Below the pieces are notes generated by a model. It made no database searches and was not told where the DNA came from. It saw only the letters and a program-made list of their open reading frames with translations. Source: Planctomicrobium piriforme (GTDB lineage Bacteria > Planctomycetota > Planctomycetia > Planctomycetales > Planctomycetaceae). Taken from it: a stretch of 64,000 nt of DNA. A program made the translations under genes and the position numbers. The stretch's first letter is position 1. Each line of letters starts with the position of its first letter. Location of the stretch: contig CAMATH010000031.1 of NCBI GenBank assembly GCA_945860955.1, forward strand, positions 1 to 64,000, written 5' to 3'. Positions 47,030 through 59,292 of the stretch are shown here, piece after piece.

Positions 47030-47065
47030 CAGCCGCGTTCGTTTGAACGCGGCTGTTGGCTTTTT
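47030..47065 (+). terminator. Terminator hairpin between L25 and pth
   Basis: CAGCCGCGTTC (47030-47040) pairs with GAACGCGGCTG (47045-47055) around GTTT, with five T at 47061-47065. It lies 20 nt before the pth start, so it may lower read-through rather than block it fully. Confidence 0.8.
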
Positions 47066-47084
47066 GTCATGGCGGTTCCCTTCC

Positions 47085-47660
47085 ATGAAAGTACTCGTTG
47101 GCCTGGGAAATCCCGGGAAAAAGTACGAAGGAACCCGGCACAACGTCGGGTTTGACCTGCTGGCCGAGATGGGCAAGCGCTGGTCCGCGCCACGACCGAA
47201 AGAAAAATTCGAGGCGCTGCTGGCCGAGGTTCTTGTCGGATCGGAACGGCTGCTGTTGGTCGCGCCCCAGACCTTTATGAACGCCAGCGGGCACAGTGTT
47301 CGTCAAGTTATGGACTTTTACCAGCTCGCGCCGGTCGACTTTCTGGTCGCGTGCGACGATATGAACCTGCCGTTGGGGAAAATTCGCCTGCGGACCGGGG
47401 GTTCCTCTGGAGGGCAAAAGGGCTTGCAGAACATTTTGCAACATCTGAAAACCGAGAACGTTCCCCGACTGCGCCTGGGCGTGGGTCGGCCGCAAGGGGA
47501 GAAGTCGACTGTCGACTACGTGCTGGAACGATTCCACAAAGTGGAACTCGAAGCCGTCGATTCGGCGGTGACAGCGGCGGCGAACGCGGTCGAGTGCTGG
47601 TTGAAGGAGGGTTTGGCGGCGGCAATGAACAAATTCAACGCGGAACCGAAGTCGCCTTAA
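47085..47660 (+). CDS. pth: Peptidyl-tRNA hydrolase
   Basis: 191 residues from the ATG at 47085; an upstream in-frame start at 47043 lies inside the terminator. The enzyme frees tRNA from peptidyl-tRNA dropped by ribosomes. Signatures are GLGNPGKKYEGTRHNVGF with the catalytic His at H19, FMNASGHSV, and the acid residue in ACDDMNLP. GGSSGGQKGLQNI is also conserved. The L25-pth order is common in bacteria. Confidence 0.97.
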   Translation: MKVLVGLGNPGKKYEGTRHNVGFDLLAEMGKRWSAPRPKEKFEALLAEVLVGSERLLLVAPQTFMNASGHSVRQVMDFYQLAPVDFLVACDDMNLPLGKIRLRTGGSSGGQKGLQNILQHLKTENVPRLRLGVGRPQGEKSTVDYVLERFHKVELEAVDSAVTAAANAVECWLKEGLAAAMNKFNAEPKSP

Positions 47661-47842: not shown

Positions 47843-49063
47843 ATGTGGAGAATTGGTCCCGGCCCCCGGGCTGGAATTCGAGTGTTGTGTGCCGCCCTGG
47901 GATCGGCGGCGTTTGCCTATGTCATGCTCCGCCCCCCGGAAGCGGTCGAAGGAGCGGCACCCAAAGTGATCGCCCGGACCCCTTACACGGTCCTCGGGTA
48001 CAACGACCTGGGAATGCACTGCATGAATCAAGACTTCTCGGAGATGTGCATCCTTCCACCCTACAATACGCTGCGAGCGCAGGTGATCGATCGGTCGGGA
48101 GATGAGCCGCGGATTGTCTCCAAGGGCGTCACCGTCAAGTATTCGATTCCGGGGAATACGATTTCCTCGACGAAGACGAATTTCTGGACGTACGCCCCGA
48201 AGATTTTCGGAACGCCACTCGCCAAGGATGTCGGACTGACGGGAAACCGACTGTCGGGAACCATGAAAGGGACCGGCAACAATGATTGGAGCGCGACGGG
48301 GATTCCCGTCACCCAATTGACCGATAAGTACCTCAGCGATCCGTTTCAACTCTCTGAAATCATCGTTCAGGACCGCAAGGGAAAGACCGTCGCGACCACG
48401 AAAGCAGTGGTCCCGGTATCGTGGGAGATCAACTGCAACCTGTGTCATAACACTCCGGGAATCACTGTCGCGACCGACATTCTGCGGAAGCACGACAAAC
48501 TCCACGGCACCAAACTGGAAAACGCCAAGCCGGTGTTATGCGCCGGATGCCATGCCGACCCGGCGCTTGGCACCAAGGGGGCCCCCAATGTCAGTGCATT
48601 CTCCCACGCGATGCATCGGTCGCATGCCAGCCGCATGGCGCAGTTGCCGAACTTCAAAAACAATTGCTACGCCTGTCACCCGGGCGTCCAGACCGAATGT
48701 CAGAGGGATGTGCATGTTTCGAAGGGAATCACCTGCGTCAGTTGCCATGGCGACATGAAAGCGGTTGGAAACTCCGCAAGGCGGCCCTGGGTCGACGAAC
48801 CGTCGTGCAAGCAGTGTCATCAGACTCGCAAGCCAAAGTTTGAGTTTGAAGAGCCGGGCAAGTTGTTCAAGGATTCCAAAGGACATGGTGGGGTGCATTG
48901 CGCGGCGTGTCATGGCCCGCAGCACGCGACCGGGCCAGCCGTCACGCCGGCCGACGACGCACAGGCGATTCTGCAGCAAGGCACCGCGGGAGTGATCCGC
49001 GACTGCACGGTCTGCCATTCGAAACAACCAAGTGAACCGTTCTTTCACAAGCGAGACGACTGA
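47843..49063 (+). CDS. Exported seven-haem cytochrome c
   Basis: 406 residues. A signal peptide or anchor (residues 10-29) precedes a non-haem domain of about 150 residues that opens VLGYNDLGMHCMNQDFSEMC. Seven CxxCH motifs follow at C198, C233, C275, C298, C322, C353 and C388. I infer a periplasmic electron carrier or reductase with the haems in the last 210 residues. No cytochrome maturation or terminal oxidase genes are adjacent. It has its own candidate promoter upstream and a strong terminator downstream, so it is probably monocistronic. Confidence 0.9.
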   Translation: MWRIGPGPRAGIRVLCAALGSAAFAYVMLRPPEAVEGAAPKVIARTPYTVLGYNDLGMHCMNQDFSEMCILPPYNTLRAQVIDRSGDEPRIVSKGVTVKYSIPGNTISSTKTNFWTYAPKIFGTPLAKDVGLTGNRLSGTMKGTGNNDWSATGIPVTQLTDKYLSDPFQLSEIIVQDRKGKTVATTKAVVPVSWEINCNLCHNTPGITVATDILRKHDKLHGTKLENAKPVLCAGCHADPALGTKGAPNVSAFSHAMHRSHASRMAQLPNFKNNCYACHPGVQTECQRDVHVSKGITCVSCHGDMKAVGNSARRPWVDEPSCKQCHQTRKPKFEFEEPGKLFKDSKGHGGVHCAACHGPQHATGPAVTPADDAQAILQQGTAGVIRDCTVCHSKQPSEPFFHKRDD

Positions 49064-49106: not shown

Positions 49107-49148
49107 GACCGCCAAGTGGGCGACATCCACTTGGCGGTCCGCTTTTTT
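49107..49148 (+). terminator. Rho-independent terminator of the seven-haem cytochrome
   Basis: GACCGCCAAGTGG (49107-49119) pairs perfectly with CCACTTGGCGGTC (49127-49139) around a 7-nt loop; a T-run begins at 49143. The downstream convergent gene ends at 49317. Confidence 0.9.
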
Positions 49149-49316: not shown

Positions 49317-50384
49317 CTACCCCATCGGGTTATTCACCGCGTCATTGATCAGTCCGACGTACCAGAATGCGATCCGGAAAATCACGAAAATGATGCAGCC
49401 GGCGACAAACACCCAAACCAGTACCCCCATCGCCGTCGCCAGCATCGACAGGCCGCGTCGCGCCTGGTCTTCGAACTGCGGACTCAACCGCTGCATCGTT
49501 TCCGGAATCGTTCCCGACGCCTCGGCCACCTGCACCACCTGCAGGTATTCGTCGGTGAACAGATGGCTGTTCGCCAGGGCCTCGGTCAGTTCGTCCCCCT
49601 CTTGAACCCAGTGTCGAATCTCGTCGGACGCGCCGGCGAACGCCCCGTTGCCGGTTGCTTTCAGGCTGAAATCGATCGACCGCAGCATCGACATTCCGGT
49701 CTGTTGTGTCAGCCCCAAAGCCCACGAAAATCGCGCGATGGCGAACGACCGCATGCAGGTGCCGATCACCGGAATCTTCAACAGCACCGAATCCAAAAGG
49801 CGCTTCTGTTGAAACGATTCGGCCACCAGGTAATAGATGATCAACACGACGAAAATCGAACCGAACGTGATCGACAGAAATTTCGTCGCCCCCGCAGGGC
49901 CGTACAGCCCGAAGCCCAGGACATCGATCGGCTTATTCCCCCCCGAGGCGGCGATCATCCCCAGGACCAGGATCATTAACGCGATGATGAAAATGGCGGC
50001 GACCAGTTGAATCACCGGCATCGCGATCGTGCCAAGAAACGACCGCCGGAGTCGCAGCAGGTTTTCGTAGTGGTCGGACAATCCATCAAGGATTTCCGGC
50101 AGCGCCCCGGTGTTTTCACCAATTGAAATCATGTCGGCAAGGAGCGGTGGAAAGTATCCCCCCTGCTCGCGAAGTGCCTCGCTGATTTCGGTCCCCGTTT
50201 GCACAAGATCCCGAACTTGCGTCAGTTTCCGCCGGCACGTGGAATCGCCGGTCTTCCGCGAGACCACGTCGAGCGCCTTGAGCAGCGGCACCCCCGCGTG
50301 CAGCATGGTCGAGAGCGACTTGCAGACCGTGGCGGCGGTCTTCAAAGGGATTCGCGACGACAGAAAAGGCAGAGAGATGGCCAT
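49317..50384 (-). CDS. Type II secretion / type IV pilus inner-membrane protein (GspF/PilC-like)
   Basis: 355 residues from the ATG at 50384; a GTG 11 codons upstream is a weaker option. Two repeats of the T2SSF domain are visible (about 20-140 and 225-345; each has a pattern like LSTMLHAGVPLLKALDVV and LGLTQQTGMSMLRSIDF), with membrane helices at about 120-155, 170-195 and 325-350. In known systems this protein sits at the base of the secretion or pilus motor. No other GspE/GspG-like gene is in the window, so it is a stand-alone copy here. Confidence 0.93.
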   Translation of the reverse strand: MAISLPFLSSRIPLKTAATVCKSLSTMLHAGVPLLKALDVVSRKTGDSTCRRKLTQVRDLVQTGTEISEALREQGGYFPPLLADMISIGENTGALPEILDGLSDHYENLLRLRRSFLGTIAMPVIQLVAAIFIIALMILVLGMIAASGGNKPIDVLGFGLYGPAGATKFLSITFGSIFVVLIIYYLVAESFQQKRLLDSVLLKIPVIGTCMRSFAIARFSWALGLTQQTGMSMLRSIDFSLKATGNGAFAGASDEIRHWVQEGDELTEALANSHLFTDEYLQVVQVAEASGTIPETMQRLSPQFEDQARRGLSMLATAMGVLVWVFVAGCIIFVIFRIAFWYVGLINDAVNNPMG

Positions 50385-50471
50385 GTCGCGGTTCTGTGGA
50401 GTGAAAAACGCCGCCACACGAGCGGCAGGAAAAAATCGACGCCGGCCTCGAGGGACAATCGCGTTGACGCC

Positions 50472-54105: not shown

Positions 54106-54400
54106 AGGCGATCTCCCCCCGGTCCCTTGAGAATTTCGCGACTGTGAGGCGGTATCAGGTTCCCCGGACTCGTGAGTCGGACCACGATTCAACGGGAAGC
54201 CGACTTGGAATTCATCCCTCGGATGGATCCCCGCTGAAATTGAGGCGGTCGCGTTGTTTGCCGACAAAGCCGGGGGGATTGTTCGATTCAACGGTCGCCT
54301 GGCGATCGGCTGCGGCACGCTGATAGCGCGCTGGGATCGTCTTCCGACTCACCCATCTGGCGTGCCCTACAATCACCCGTCTGCCTGGAAATCTGTCGTC

Positions 54401-57400
54401 ATGCCGAACCCCACCCCACAATCGCCAGCGACATCGTTGCCAGCCAATCTCCCCCGCTCCACGGGTTACGTCCCCGCGATTGGACCGGGACTGAAACGGC
54501 TTTTTTACGTCGTGTTGTTCCTGGTCGCCCTGTTGGCCGCCAATTCGCTCTACCTGGGAACCGTCACGTTTCGGGGCTGGCTGGCCGGCGCGGGGATCAG
54601 CTACGAGAACTACTTCTACCTCTGGATGTTCTTTGTCCATCTGGCGTTGGGGCTGCTGCTGGTGGTCCCGTTCGTCGCGTTCGGCACGATTCACCTGGTG
54701 ACCTCCCGCAACCGACGCAATCGCCGTGCGGTTCGCGTCGGGTACGCGTTATTCATCGCGGGACTGGTCGTGTTGCTCACGGGGCTCGCGCTGATGCAGG
54801 TGGGCTTCATCGAATTGCGGCACGCCGCGACCAGGCAGTTGGTCTATTGGCTGCATGTGGGGGCACCGCTCGCGGCTGGCTGGCTGTACTGGTTGCATCG
54901 GCTCGCCGGTCCGCGCATCAAGTGGCGGTACGGATTGATGTATGGAGCCGCCGTCGCCGGTCTGGTGGCGACGATGATTGGAGTCCAGAACGCCGACCCG
55001 CGCAAACTGAACGCGCAAGGCTCGGTGGAAGGGGCGAAGTATTTCGAACCGTCGCGGGCGATCACCGTGTCGGGTCAGTTCATTCCCGCAGACACCCTGA
55101 TGATGGACGAGTATTGCCTGAAGTGCCATGCCGACGCCTATGCGCAACATCAGCACAGCGCGCACCGCTTCAGCTCGTTCAACAATCCGATGTACTTCGC
55201 CTCCGTGAACGAAACGCGCGAGTTCGCGATGAAACGGGACGGCAATGTGAAGGCGTCGCGATGGTGTGCCGGCTGTCACGACCCCGCCCCGTTTTTCAGC
55301 GGTCAGTTCGACGATCCCAAGTACGACATCGTCAATCATCCGACCGCGAAGGCGGGAATCACCTGCACCGTCTGCCACGCGATCACCAGCCTCAACAGCA
55401 CGGAATGGAACGACCAGTACAGCACTCGCGGCAACGCCGACTTCACCATCGACGAACCGATTCACTATCCATTCGCCAAGAGTGACAACACGATTCTGCA
55501 ATGGATCAACAATCAGCTCGTGAAGGCGAAGCCGACGTTTCACAAACAGACGTTCCTCAAACCCCTGCACAAGACGTCGGAGTTCTGCTCGGCCTGCCAC
55601 AAGGTGCATCTGCCGTACGAACTCAATCACTACAAAGAGTTCCTGCGCGGGCAGGACCATTACAATTCCTTCCTGCTCTCGGGGGTCAGCGGGGGAAATG
55701 CTAGGTCGTTCTACTATCCCGAGAAGGCGCGAGAAAACTGTGCCGAGTGCCACATGCCGATCAAGGAATCGGGCGATTTTGGTGCCCGGGATTTCGCCCG
55801 CGACGGCAAACTCAGCATCCACAATCACCTGTTTCCCGCCGCGAATACCGCCCTGCCCCATGTTCGCGGGGACGATGACGCGACAATCGCCGCACACCAG
55901 GCGTTCTTGAAAGACATCGTGCGGGTCGATTTGTTTGGGGTGAAAGAGGAGGGCAAAATCGACGGCGCGCTGTCGGCGCCGTTGCGACCGGAGTTGCCCA
56001 CCCTCAAGCCGGGGCACACGTATCTGCTGGAGACCGTGCTGCGGACCCTGAAAGTCGGGCACCTGTTTTCTCAGGGGACTGTGGACTCGAACGAGATCTG
56101 GGTGGAAGTCACCGTCAAGAGCGGCGACAAGGTCATTGGCCGAAACGGCGCGATCGACGACGAAGGATCGGTCGACGCTTGGTCGCACTTCATCAACGTG
56201 TTCATGCTCGATCGGCACGGCAATCGAATCGATCGGCGGAATCCGCAAGACATCTTCACGCCGCTCTACAACAAGCAGATTCCCCCCGGTGCGGCGCAGA
56301 TCGTGCATTTTGAACTGGCGCTGCCGGACAAGCTCGACGCGCCCGTCACTGTCGAAGTGAAACTGCAGTACCGCAAGTTCGACCGGATCTACATGGATTT
56401 TGTTGGCAGAAATCTGAAGGAAGGGGGACCGACGCTGCCCAACCACAAACCGGGCGAACCATGGAAGAACACCCTCCCCGTGACCACGATCGCCAGCGAC
56501 ACGGTCACGTTCCCGGTCGAGGGAGTCGTCGCCGAAATTCCCGAACAGAAGTCGAAAATCGCCGAGAAGGATCTGTGGCAGCGCTGGAATGACTACGGCA
56601 TTGGCCTGCTCCTCGAAGGATCGGCCCCCGGTTCTGGAGGGGGCAAGGCGGAACTGCTGCAAGCCGAGCAGGCGTTCCAGGAGGTCGAGAAACTGGGTCG
56701 GTACGACGGTCCGGTGAATCTGGCTCGCGTCTACTCAACCGAGGGACGAATTGACGAGGCGGTCGACGCGCTGCACCGCGCGGGGGAATTCAGGAATCCG
56801 AGCGCTCCCTCCTGGACGGTCGCGTGGTTCAGTGGTGTCATCAACAAACAGCAGGGATACCTCGACAAGGCGATCGAGAACTTCCGCAGCGTGCTGTCGG
56901 ACCAGACCGAAGAACGGCGCAGTCGGCGGTTGCATTTCGAGCGGGATTACGTTGTTCGCAATGAACTGGGCCAGACGTTGTACGAACTGGCGAAGCAGGT
57001 CCGCGATGACGAAAACGAACGGCGGAGATTGCTGGGGGAAGCGGTCACCGAGTTTGAGACGGTGCTGTTCTACGATTCCGAAGATGTGATGGCGCATTAC
57101 AACCTGGCCCGGCTGTACACCGAACTGGAAAATGAAGCGAAAGCCGAGCTGCATCGCAAAATGCACCTGCGGTACAAACCGGACGACAACGCGCAGGAAC
57201 TGGCGGTCAATGCCGCCCGACTCAAGTATCCGGCGGCGAACGTCGCGTCGGAACCCCTGGTGATTTACCCGTTGAATCGCCCGGGGGCACCGGGACTCCC
57301 TGCGGAGTTCGCGCGACAGAAAGCAGATGACCCCACAGTCCCCAAGCGCGCCGCCCAACCCCGCCCCGCCGCCATCGACGCCGCCGCCGGAAAGGCCGGC

Positions 57401-57430
57401 CACGAACCCAAAACCGGAGACGCGACATGA
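54401..57430 (+). CDS. Membrane-anchored five-haem cytochrome c with TPR domain
   Basis: 1009 residues from the ATG at 54401; an in-frame start 49 codons earlier adds no recognisable sequence. Four or five membrane helices lie within residues 30-195. Five CxxCH motifs follow at C239, C289, C322, C396 and C447, resembling haem-rich domains of the cytochrome c554 group. A beta-rich domain of about 200 residues comes next, then a TPR-like region (about 730-930; ARVYSTEGRIDEAVDALHRA, FRSVLSDQ, ARLYTELENEAKAELH). A 4-nt ATGA overlap links it to the CRTAC1-like gene. I infer an electron-transfer complex on the outer face of the membrane; the electron donor and acceptor are unknown. Confidence 0.9.
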   Translation: MPNPTPQSPATSLPANLPRSTGYVPAIGPGLKRLFYVVLFLVALLAANSLYLGTVTFRGWLAGAGISYENYFYLWMFFVHLALGLLLVVPFVAFGTIHLVTSRNRRNRRAVRVGYALFIAGLVVLLTGLALMQVGFIELRHAATRQLVYWLHVGAPLAAGWLYWLHRLAGPRIKWRYGLMYGAAVAGLVATMIGVQNADPRKLNAQGSVEGAKYFEPSRAITVSGQFIPADTLMMDEYCLKCHADAYAQHQHSAHRFSSFNNPMYFASVNETREFAMKRDGNVKASRWCAGCHDPAPFFSGQFDDPKYDIVNHPTAKAGITCTVCHAITSLNSTEWNDQYSTRGNADFTIDEPIHYPFAKSDNTILQWINNQLVKAKPTFHKQTFLKPLHKTSEFCSACHKVHLPYELNHYKEFLRGQDHYNSFLLSGVSGGNARSFYYPEKARENCAECHMPIKESGDFGARDFARDGKLSIHNHLFPAANTALPHVRGDDDATIAAHQAFLKDIVRVDLFGVKEEGKIDGALSAPLRPELPTLKPGHTYLLETVLRTLKVGHLFSQGTVDSNEIWVEVTVKSGDKVIGRNGAIDDEGSVDAWSHFINVFMLDRHGNRIDRRNPQDIFTPLYNKQIPPGAAQIVHFELALPDKLDAPVTVEVKLQYRKFDRIYMDFVGRNLKEGGPTLPNHKPGEPWKNTLPVTTIASDTVTFPVEGVVAEIPEQKSKIAEKDLWQRWNDYGIGLLLEGSAPGSGGGKAELLQAEQAFQEVEKLGRYDGPVNLARVYSTEGRIDEAVDALHRAGEFRNPSAPSWTVAWFSGVINKQQGYLDKAIENFRSVLSDQTEERRSRRLHFERDYVVRNELGQTLYELAKQVRDDENERRRLLGEAVTEFETVLFYDSEDVMAHYNLARLYTELENEAKAELHRKMHLRYKPDDNAQELAVNAARLKYPAANVASEPLVIYPLNRPGAPGLPAEFARQKADDPTVPKRAAQPRPAAIDAAAGKAGHEPKTGDAT

Positions 57431-59292
57431 TCGACAGGAGCAAACACAAGCCGGCGGCGTCGCAACCGGAGGTTCCCGCGGACGATTCGATCATCGGACG
57501 GATGTTTCGAAAGTCACTGATCGCGTTTGGTGCGATACTCGTGGCGCTGTTGGCCTTCTACTGGTTTGACAAGAAGACGGAAGACAAGCCGATCGACCAG
57601 CAAACCGAACTGTCGCCTGCCGAAAAGCGGAAAGAGGTGGCGGTGGAACTGCCCAAAGTGCCGCTGGTTGACATGACCGAATCCGCCGGCATTCGGTTTG
57701 TCCACCAGAATGGTGCCCGCGGAGAGAAGCTGCTCCCGGAATCGATGGGGGGTGGGTGCGCGATCATCGATTACAACAACGACGGCCGTCCTGACATTCT
57801 GTTTGTGAATTCTCGGAAGTGGAGGGAAGAGGAGTCTCCCGTCAGCGCTCCGGCGACCATGGCGCTGTACCGCAATGACGGAGATTGGAAATTCACCGAT
57901 GTCTCCGCCGACGCGGGCCTGGCAGTCTCGTTCTACGGCCAGGGAGTCGCGGTGGGAGACTATGACAACGACGGCTGGAGCGATCTGTTCATCACCGCCG
58001 TCGGTTACAACCACCTGTATCACAACGAACAGGGGAAGTTTGTGGATGTCACCGCGACTGCGGGGGTCGCTGGGGGCGAAACCGAATGGAGTACCAGCAG
58101 CGGATTCTTCGATTACGATCGCGATGGCGATCTCGATTTGTTCGTCGCCAACTACATTCGCTGGTCGCCCGAAATCGATCGCGACTTGCGCTGCACACTC
58201 GACGGCTCGCTCCGGGCGTACTGTCGGCCGCAGGCGTTCGACGGAACGTTTCCCTATTTGTATCGCAACGATGGCGATGGCAAATTCACGGACGTTTCCG
58301 CGGAAGCGGGAGTGCAGGTTCGCAACGTGAACACGCAGATCCCCTCGGCGAAGTCGCTGGGGATCGTTTTTGTCGACGCCGACGGTGATGGCAACTTGGA
58401 CATTGTCGTTGCCAACGACACCGTTCAGAACTTTCTATTCCACAACCTGGGGAATGGAAAATTCGAAGAGATTGGGATCGAGCGGGGAATTGGCGTCGAC
58501 AACTCGGGGAATGCCCGGGGAGCGATGGGCTGCGACGCCGGCTGGTTCCGGAACGATGAAACACTGGCAGTCGTCATTGGAAACTTCGCCAACGAGATGA
58601 CGGCGCTCTATTGCACCAAGAAGAGCGCGATGATGTTCAGTGACGATGCGGTGGCGACCGGCCTGGGTCCGCCGTCGCGCATCTGGCTGAAATTTGGGGT
58701 GTGCTTTCTCGACGTCGACCTCGATTCACGAACCGACCTGCTGGTCGCCAACGGGCATCTTGAAAACGACATCAGCAAGGTGCAGAAAAGCCAGCAGTAC
58801 CAGCAGCCGCCGCAACTTTACTGGAACACAGGTTCCCGGCGGGGAAGTGAATTCGCCAAGCTGGACGCCAATCTGACCGGAAGCGATTTTGTGAAACCGA
58901 TGGTCGGTCGCGGGGCGACCTACGCCGACTTTGATGGCGATGGCGACCTGGATCTGTTGCTGATGGCGACTGGTGAAGCGCCCCGGCTCCTCAAGAACGA
59001 TCAGCAACTGGGCCACCACTGGTTGCGGGTAAAGCTGGTGGGAAATGGCAAGTCGACCAATCGCGATGCCATTGGCACCCTCGTGAAACTGACTCAAAAG
59101 GGAGGAACACAGCGTCGGCTGGTTTCGCCCACGCGGAGCTACTTGTCGCAGGTGGAATTGGTCGCCACGTTTGGGTTGGGGACCGATGAAACGGTGACCT
59201 CGTTGACCATTCGCTGGCCCGACGGGAAGACCCAGGAAGTGACTGTCGAGGGGGTCGATCGGCAACTGACGGTCGAACAGGAGAGTCCGTAA
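57427..59292 (+). CDS. CRTAC1-like FG-GAP/VCBS repeat protein with ASPIC/UnbV end
   Basis: 621 residues. An N-terminal anchor (about residues 31-46) is followed by repeated FG-GAP calcium-binding strands: DYNNDGRPDILFVN, DYDNDGWSDLFI, DYDRDGDLDLFVANY, DADGDGNLDIVVAND and DFDGDGDLDLLLMA. The end (NRDAIGTLVKLTQKGGTQRRLVSPTRSYLSQ) matches the ASPIC/UnbV domain. Such proteins form a seven-bladed propeller that binds calcium at the cell surface. The 4-nt overlap with the cytochrome gene points to one complex. The pair is common in planctomycetes; its job is not known to me. Confidence 0.93.
   Translation: MIDRSKHKPAASQPEVPADDSIIGRMFRKSLIAFGAILVALLAFYWFDKKTEDKPIDQQTELSPAEKRKEVAVELPKVPLVDMTESAGIRFVHQNGARGEKLLPESMGGGCAIIDYNNDGRPDILFVNSRKWREEESPVSAPATMALYRNDGDWKFTDVSADAGLAVSFYGQGVAVGDYDNDGWSDLFITAVGYNHLYHNEQGKFVDVTATAGVAGGETEWSTSSGFFDYDRDGDLDLFVANYIRWSPEIDRDLRCTLDGSLRAYCRPQAFDGTFPYLYRNDGDGKFTDVSAEAGVQVRNVNTQIPSAKSLGIVFVDADGDGNLDIVVANDTVQNFLFHNLGNGKFEEIGIERGIGVDNSGNARGAMGCDAGWFRNDETLAVVIGNFANEMTALYCTKKSAMMFSDDAVATGLGPPSRIWLKFGVCFLDVDLDSRTDLLVANGHLENDISKVQKSQQYQQPPQLYWNTGSRRGSEFAKLDANLTGSDFVKPMVGRGATYADFDGDGDLDLLLMATGEAPRLLKNDQQLGHHWLRVKLVGNGKSTNRDAIGTLVKLTQKGGTQRRLVSPTRSYLSQVELVATFGLGTDETVTSLTIRWPDGKTQEVTVEGVDRQLTVEQESP

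Follow-up and report, generated by a model that had tools for sequence, protein, structure and literature searches.

The cytochrome gene and its family

The gene described here lies on the forward strand at positions 47843–49063 of the window—the whole 64,000-nucleotide stretch of DNA that was analysed—and is called as an open reading frame of 406 amino acids with an ATG start and seven CxxCH haem motifs. Just 9 further bases of open frame precede the ATG, so that the start codon is certain to within three codons. In our AlphaFold2 model, residues 9–29 (47867–47929, + strand) form a hydrophobic helix that would serve either as a signal peptide or as an N-terminal anchor; the protein is probably exported or secreted. 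On the same strand, an open frame at 47043–47660, which by inspection we take to encode peptidyl-tRNA hydrolase, stops 182 bases ahead of the ATG, and the frame that follows the cytochrome (49317–50417; type II secretion-like, by inspection) runs on the minus strand. A terminator-like stem-loop of 14 pairs with a T tail (49107–49139, + strand) starts 43 bases past the cytochrome stop codon, although the region tested contained two such sites against a shuffle mean of 2.4, i.e. no excess. The cytochrome gene appears to stand alone, and a search of a plasmid collection with it returned no match.

The only other open frame in the window that exceeds 100 amino acids and carries at least two CxxCH motifs is found at 54176–57427. 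Here, a 1058-residue protein that combines TPR repeats with five CxxCH motifs is encoded at 54254–57430, its gene overlapping by four bases that of a 621-residue FG-GAP/UnbV_ASPIC protein (57427–59292); the two likely constitute a two-gene unit.

In a single scan of genome contigs we found 51 loci of the cytochrome family, at 31–92% identity, which we take to represent some nine phyla: Planctomycetota, Armatimonadota, Hydrogenedentota, Bacteroidota, Desulfobacterota, Poribacteria, Campylobacterota, Acidobacteriota and Pseudomonadota. Lacipirellula limnantheis I41 and Bythopirellula polymerisocia Pla144 are named planctomycete strains with a member. Members are scattered unevenly: of 59 genomes scanned, eight gave a match (the own genome counted, and two of the eight matching weakly and in the haem part alone), and of 392 genomes in a survey of the phylum, 35 did so at E-values no higher than 1e-20 (a total that includes the own genome and a partial match). 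Thirty loci from this survey divide into 25 with nine haem motifs, one with eight and four with seven. In a genome of the same genus (L054:4960–5513) we see only residues 1–71 and 288–406 of the orthologue, adjacent to each other and at 92–96% identity, the missing middle reflecting either a deletion or an assembly error. No publication on the heptahaem family was found among the literature matches listed, as judged by titles and the openings of abstracts and with subscription literature mostly outside the search; the family is apparently unnamed and undescribed.

Cousins of ~800 residues, likewise with seven haems, are present in a Sulfurimonas genome and in 11 of 274 genomes from the class of a gammaproteobacterium (loci L094, L095 and L112–L133). 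Aligned over their whole length with the family they give an hhalign probability of 100% (E = 3.8e-38), and their identity to the first row of their own alignment is 65–78% for the gammaproteobacterial rows and 44% for that of Sulfurimonas.

The counts given below are drawn from three alignments. The first, A1, has 49 rows and omits fragments (L042, L043, L054, L060, L061), weak matches and repeat loci; the second has 87 rows, with the query present twice, and omits L042, L060, L061 and L006 (short, fewer than seven haem motifs) and, by rule, L094, L095, L107 and L111; the third has 118 rows, with the query again present twice (as QUERY and as L001), and omits L157 and L158, whose open frames are cut short. 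Counts 'of 117' refer to this last alignment minus L001.

The haem domain and the N-terminal domain

The original prediction had described a seven-haem cytochrome with its CxxCH motifs packed towards the C-terminus, and this description holds: all seven motifs fall within the last 209 residues, spanning residues 198–392 and located, on the + strand, at residues 198–202 (haem 1; 48434–48448), 233–237 (haem 2; 48539–48553), 275–279 (haem 3; 48665–48679), 298–302 (haem 4; 48734–48748), 322–326 (haem 5; 48806–48820), 353–357 (haem 6; 48899–48913) and 388–392 (haem 7; 49004–49018). C198 and H202 of haem 1 are found in all 118 rows, with haems 2–7 assigned by motif count; L044 and L049 carry CX4CH in place of CxxCH at haems 1 and 5, and L046 and L048 at haem 5. 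A chance origin for the seven motifs is ruled out, as 20,000 rounds of shuffling the same residues gave a maximum of 2 (mean 0.034). Seven CxxCH motifs in combination with the N-terminal hydrophobic helix, and the export it suggests, are the features of a multihaem c-type cytochrome.

Candidate distal ligands can be picked out from conservation across the 118 rows. They are (all + strand) H217 (48491–48493; 117/118 rows), H258 and H261 of an HxxH motif (48614–48625; 118/118), residue 291 (48713–48715; 37 His and 81 Met), and H348 (48884–48886), H361 (48923–48925) and H402 (49046–49048), each kept in every row. Thirteen columns hold nothing other than His or Met, these being the seven CxxCH histidines together with positions 258, 261, 291, 348, 361 and 402. 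Residue 291 is His in the window protein and Met in 81 of the 117 distinct rows; the column has changed once on our quick tree, with His in the branch that includes the window protein, and the ~800-residue cousins also carry His at the equivalent position. As it tolerates His and Met alone, column 291 fits a haem ligand; in general, haems with bis-His ligation have lower potentials than those with His/Met. Judged by this pattern of conservation, H217, H258, H261, H/M291, H348, H361 and H402 could close all seven haems. We also considered H59, in the N-terminal domain, as a haem ligand and rejected it, since the set of seven is already filled with residue 291, and some members lack H59 while retaining every haem motif.

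Searches of Pfam, NCBIfam and PDB sequences with the whole protein gave similarity to the haem part only. This part scores above the gathering threshold for Cytochrome_C7 (PF14522; 40.4 versus 24.8 bits), Cytochrom_c3_2 (PF14537; 27.3 versus 25 bits) and Cytochrome_C554 (PF13435; 26.9 versus 20.8 bits)—short haem modules of 67–84 positions that span neither the N-terminal domain nor the seven-haem arrangement. A weak local similarity to the decahaem DmsE family (TIGR03508), over residues 197–395, stays well outside membership, the score being 29.4 bits where the cut-off lies at 192.2.

Ahead of the haems, residues 46–195 (47978–48427, + strand) are modelled as an Ig-like beta-sandwich. The presence here of a non-haem domain of ~150 residues that could not be recognised had been predicted from the outset, and our searches agree: no curated Pfam or NCBIfam model matched, and the suggested HMM search of the domain, run with residues 41–189 alone, found no family in either collection at E up to 10, a setting under which the HMMER filters nevertheless discard most matches above E ~0.1. 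Nor did the family matches of the 49 A1 members (one set comprising the best 25 of 44) point to an identity for the domain. The domain itself is genuine and conserved. AlphaFold2 models the whole protein, haem-free and with alignment A1 as input, at a pLDDT of 89 and pTM of 0.84, and the N-terminal domain alone at 95.8 and 0.89.

In a fold search with the N-terminal domain, the best 50 PDB entries have Z 6.6–7.3 (~90–100 residues, 2.5–3.5 Å); most of these 50 are domains from antibodies or other Ig-like folds, and none stands out among them. Foldseek gave no match for the domain at E up to 0.001. The predicted fold is thus described as Ig-like, and we claim no specific relative in the PDB. Two copper-binding candidates were set aside. 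The likeness to the copper protein CrdA (Z 7.2, 89 residues, 2.5 Å) is tied with those to unrelated Ig folds. Type 1 copper cupredoxin domains have two conserved histidines and a cysteine, usually with a methionine, and H59 is the one conserved histidine within residues 40–195 of the 87-row alignment. In the same alignment, the only Cys, His or Met residues of the domain conserved in more than 95% of rows are M58, H59 and C60, with M61 present in 67 of 87. These residues mark out the GMHC motif, which is among the best conserved parts of the domain.

Conserved cysteines and the residues lost with them

Beyond the haem motifs, the mature window protein has three cysteines: C60 (48020–48022), C69 (48047–48049) and C286 (48698–48700), all on the + strand. 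C60 closes the GMHC motif (residues 57–60; 48011–48022, + strand), the glycine of which, G57, is present in 118 of 118 rows; C69 follows in a C60-x8-C69 arrangement; and C286 is located in the loop that separates haem 3 from haem 4, five residues ahead of position 291. The pattern originally noted around these residues, LGMHCMNQDFSEMC (residues 56–69), is indeed present and its GMHC portion conserved, but its last cysteine, C69, is a cysteine in only 20 of 117 rows. A further conserved stretch, LPPYN (residues 71–75; 48053–48067, + strand), ends with N75.

The number of non-haem cysteines in the core of the protein is two in 86 of the 117 distinct rows, three in 23, four in one and none in seven, with no row holding exactly one. 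In those 86 rows the sole non-haem core cysteines are C60 and C286. The two are also kept or lost along with H59 and N75, all four residues being present in 110 of 117 rows and all four absent in seven, without intermediates (111 and 7 in the raw tally of the 118-row alignment, where the query is counted twice). The seven rows lacking this quartet keep every haem motif and every candidate ligand position. They come from the Acidobacteriota searches (L058, L105, L106, L156, L159, L160 and L161) and form a single clade, so that the loss counts as one event (support 98, on a quick tree built without the quartet columns). Replacements vary within the clade—H59 to Asn; C60 to Pro or Ser; N75 to Val or Ala; C286 to Gly, Ser or Met—and M58 is Val in four of the seven. 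The clade can serve as a naturally occurring control for what the H59/C60/N75/C286 site does.

In the ~800-residue cousins, the GMHC motif, PPYN and a C...RDxH loop are kept in 12 of 12 sequences. The cousins have two further invariant cysteines, C51 and C52 in the numbering of their first row, one of which aligns with C69 and one of which falls earlier; C69 may therefore be old, its column having changed twice on the tree of the 117 rows with a polarity that reads either way. Pairing of C60 with C69 is possible in those members that have both. For most members we infer from the joint keeping and loss of C60 and C286 that these form an interdomain disulfide, close to the haem putatively ligated by residue 291, and that H59 and N75 would belong to the same site.

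Probable electron transfer and a proposed role of the cysteine pair

Clusters of neighbouring genes, built with blastp from a simple gene caller across 53 loci and the window, were dominated by response regulators (nine loci) and ABC-type ATPases (six loci), both common kinds of gene; no other neighbour family recurred in more than three loci of this set. In five loci (L004, L024, L028, L054 and L056) the gene caller missed the cytochrome itself, and hence its neighbours too. Signs of a cell-surface location are seen in some relatives: tails for type IX secretion (T9SS) in 2 of 49 A1 members among the matches listed; known domains (Big_2, Big_9/cadherin-like, InlB-type and EF-hand) in four of the eight extensions scanned; and lipobox-like signals in 19 of 116 sequences by a loose pattern, at least five of these being doubtful. 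A search for an MtrB-family porin in the own genome found none, but this is a weak test, the same search reaching its cut-off in 0 of 14 control genomes. Taken from sequence, the surface signs in relatives, together with the genes described below near the Sulfurimonas member and the cousins, would suit an envelope electron-transfer protein.

Two Campylobacterota loci (L051:9589–13093 and L053:2690–6190) place the member near a porin-looking gene of 337–354 residues, a gene of 137–138 residues and a sensor kinase. At the former, a Sulfurimonas locus, the 354-residue gene comes after the member, has no Pfam hit and is called a porin by sequence reading only, with a histidine kinase further on past it.

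The explanation that we prefer, and consider slightly better than an even bet, is that the gene encodes a stand-alone, probably exported heptahaem c-type cytochrome that acts as an electron carrier or outlet, in which an interdomain C60–C286 disulfide sits near the haem putatively ligated by residue 291. The protein would be located in the cell envelope or at the cell surface. Should every haem be closed by one of the seven conserved His/Met positions, electrons would run along the haem chain and no substrate would bind to haem iron. The C60–C286 disulfide would fix the N-terminal domain to the haem domain beside the haem that has residue 291 as its distal ligand and, more speculatively, the cysteine pair along with H59 and N75 might tune the outlet through their own redox state, by analogy with the CX8C disulfide of MtrC; in the window protein, C69 would offer C60 a second possible partner. 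Several observations count against this explanation. The link between C60 and C286 depends on one lineage, i.e. one loss event, and on cysteine numbers; a plain structural disulfide would not account for the accompanying loss of H59 and N75; the invariant cysteine of the cousins at the place of C69 means that C60 could pair with C69 instead; and, on the weak test above, the genome yielded no MtrB-family porin.

A simpler account, which we judge unlikely although it is the best placed of the alternatives, has an ordinary periplasmic electron carrier with a purely structural disulfide between C60 and C286 (or C69, where present). It draws on the uniform cysteine counts, with exactly two in 86 of 117 rows, and on the lack of recognised operon partners across the 53 loci and the window; the disappearance of the adjacent H59 and N75 together with the cysteine pair, and a motif that stays invariant even in the cousins, both speak against it.

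That M58, H59 and C60 might join C286 (and N75) in binding an extra metal or small ligand at the domain seam, the site exchanging electrons with the adjoining haem, seems to us improbable. The loss of H59, C60, N75 and C286 as a unit, with M58 replaced by Val in four of the seven losers, exceeds the needs of a disulfide, and the motif is kept in cousins homologous over their full length. Against this, the paired keeping and loss of two non-haem cysteines is the usual mark of a disulfide, the N-terminal domain has a single conserved histidine, and its CrdA match is one among equals with unrelated Ig folds. The further metal that the original prediction had allowed for in the N-terminal domain is not borne out in that form: C60 is kept or lost with a cysteine of the haem domain, and in 86 of 117 rows the core has no non-haem cysteine besides these two, which fits a disulfide better. 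A further metal would thus appear less likely than a cysteine bridge.

Less probable again is a terminal reductase of the NrfA or MccA kind, in which a haem would be the site of catalysis and the N-terminal domain would bind substrate. Searched against the PDB, the family profile aligns best with a nitrite reductase (6v0a; E = 3.5e-5), through its haem part; MccA was reached at E = 0.075 in a single-sequence PDB search, and near the cousins a cluster of NapC/NirT quinol dehydrogenase genes occurs in two of ten loci, confirmed in both. The ten loci include two from one genome and one from Sulfurimonas; c-type cytochrome genes lie near the cousins in part of the loci, and an AhpC/redoxin cluster in four, confirmed in three of the four. 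In catalytic multihaem reductases of the NrfA/MccA type one haem lacks a distal ligand, whereas here the seven haems could draw on as many conserved candidate distal ligands; nor was an NapC/NirT-type neighbour recognised at the window gene, where the scan with family models covered 54254–59289.

Least probable by some way is a subunit of an extracellular cytochrome filament: prolyl isomerases are linked with such filaments and a PPIC-type isomerase cluster (by blastp) lies near the cousins in eight of ten loci, Pfam-confirmed in three of the eight, with surface-type extra domains in some relatives, but all candidate ligands here lie within one chain, known filament cytochromes differ from proteins with a large beta-domain, and no isomerase was recognised, by inspection, beside the window gene. 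Cytochrome nanowires (OmcS, OmcE, OmcZ) polymerise with haem contacts between subunits.

Returning to the electron carrier or outlet with a possibly redox-active cysteine pair, the closest comparison is with MtrC, OmcA, MtrF and UndA of Shewanella, which also place a beta-domain beside a multihaem domain and carry, within domain III, two conserved cysteines in a CX8C arrangement. The MtrC CX8C disulfide is reported to be redox-active, to control flavin binding and reduction, and to hold back the reduction of flavin under air (PMC9973256, PMC4486940). A Foldseek search with our full model places MtrC first, at E = 1.3e-3 with a probability of 0.41, a TM-score of 0.16 and an rmsd of 22.7 Å, and the MtrC-type chain 9eov matches residues 230–328 by sequence (E = 9.7e-4). 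The OmcA/MtrC model TIGR03507 and the model for MtrC/MtrF haem domains II/IV, PF22113, both leave the window protein unmatched with an E-value limit of 10; with a limit of 0.1, the former matches 3 of the 49 A1 members among the matches listed and the latter 21 of 49, with a best value of 5.1e-14. The architectures differ: the MtrC family has ten haems, two haem domains and two beta-barrels, whereas the window protein has seven haems after one beta-domain that is Ig-like by model, and its C60/C286 pair spans two domains. A likeness in working principle to the MtrC switch is a hypothesis.

A bolder version is doubtful in our estimation: a distinct class of envelope electron outlets, spread over some nine phyla, in which a redox-active cysteine pair between Ig-like and haem domains, together with H59 and N75, would gate electron flow at the haem whose candidate distal ligand is His or Met—a switch unlike that of MtrC, and one in which members with C69 could swap the partner of C60. 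The family described here keeps one and the same layout in phyla far apart from one another, and it falls within an established kind of protein. Annotation of multihaem cytochromes is difficult, as curated models recognise little past the haem motifs; if the cysteine pair is a switch, the family would represent another thiol-controlled multihaem cytochrome beside the MtrC family.
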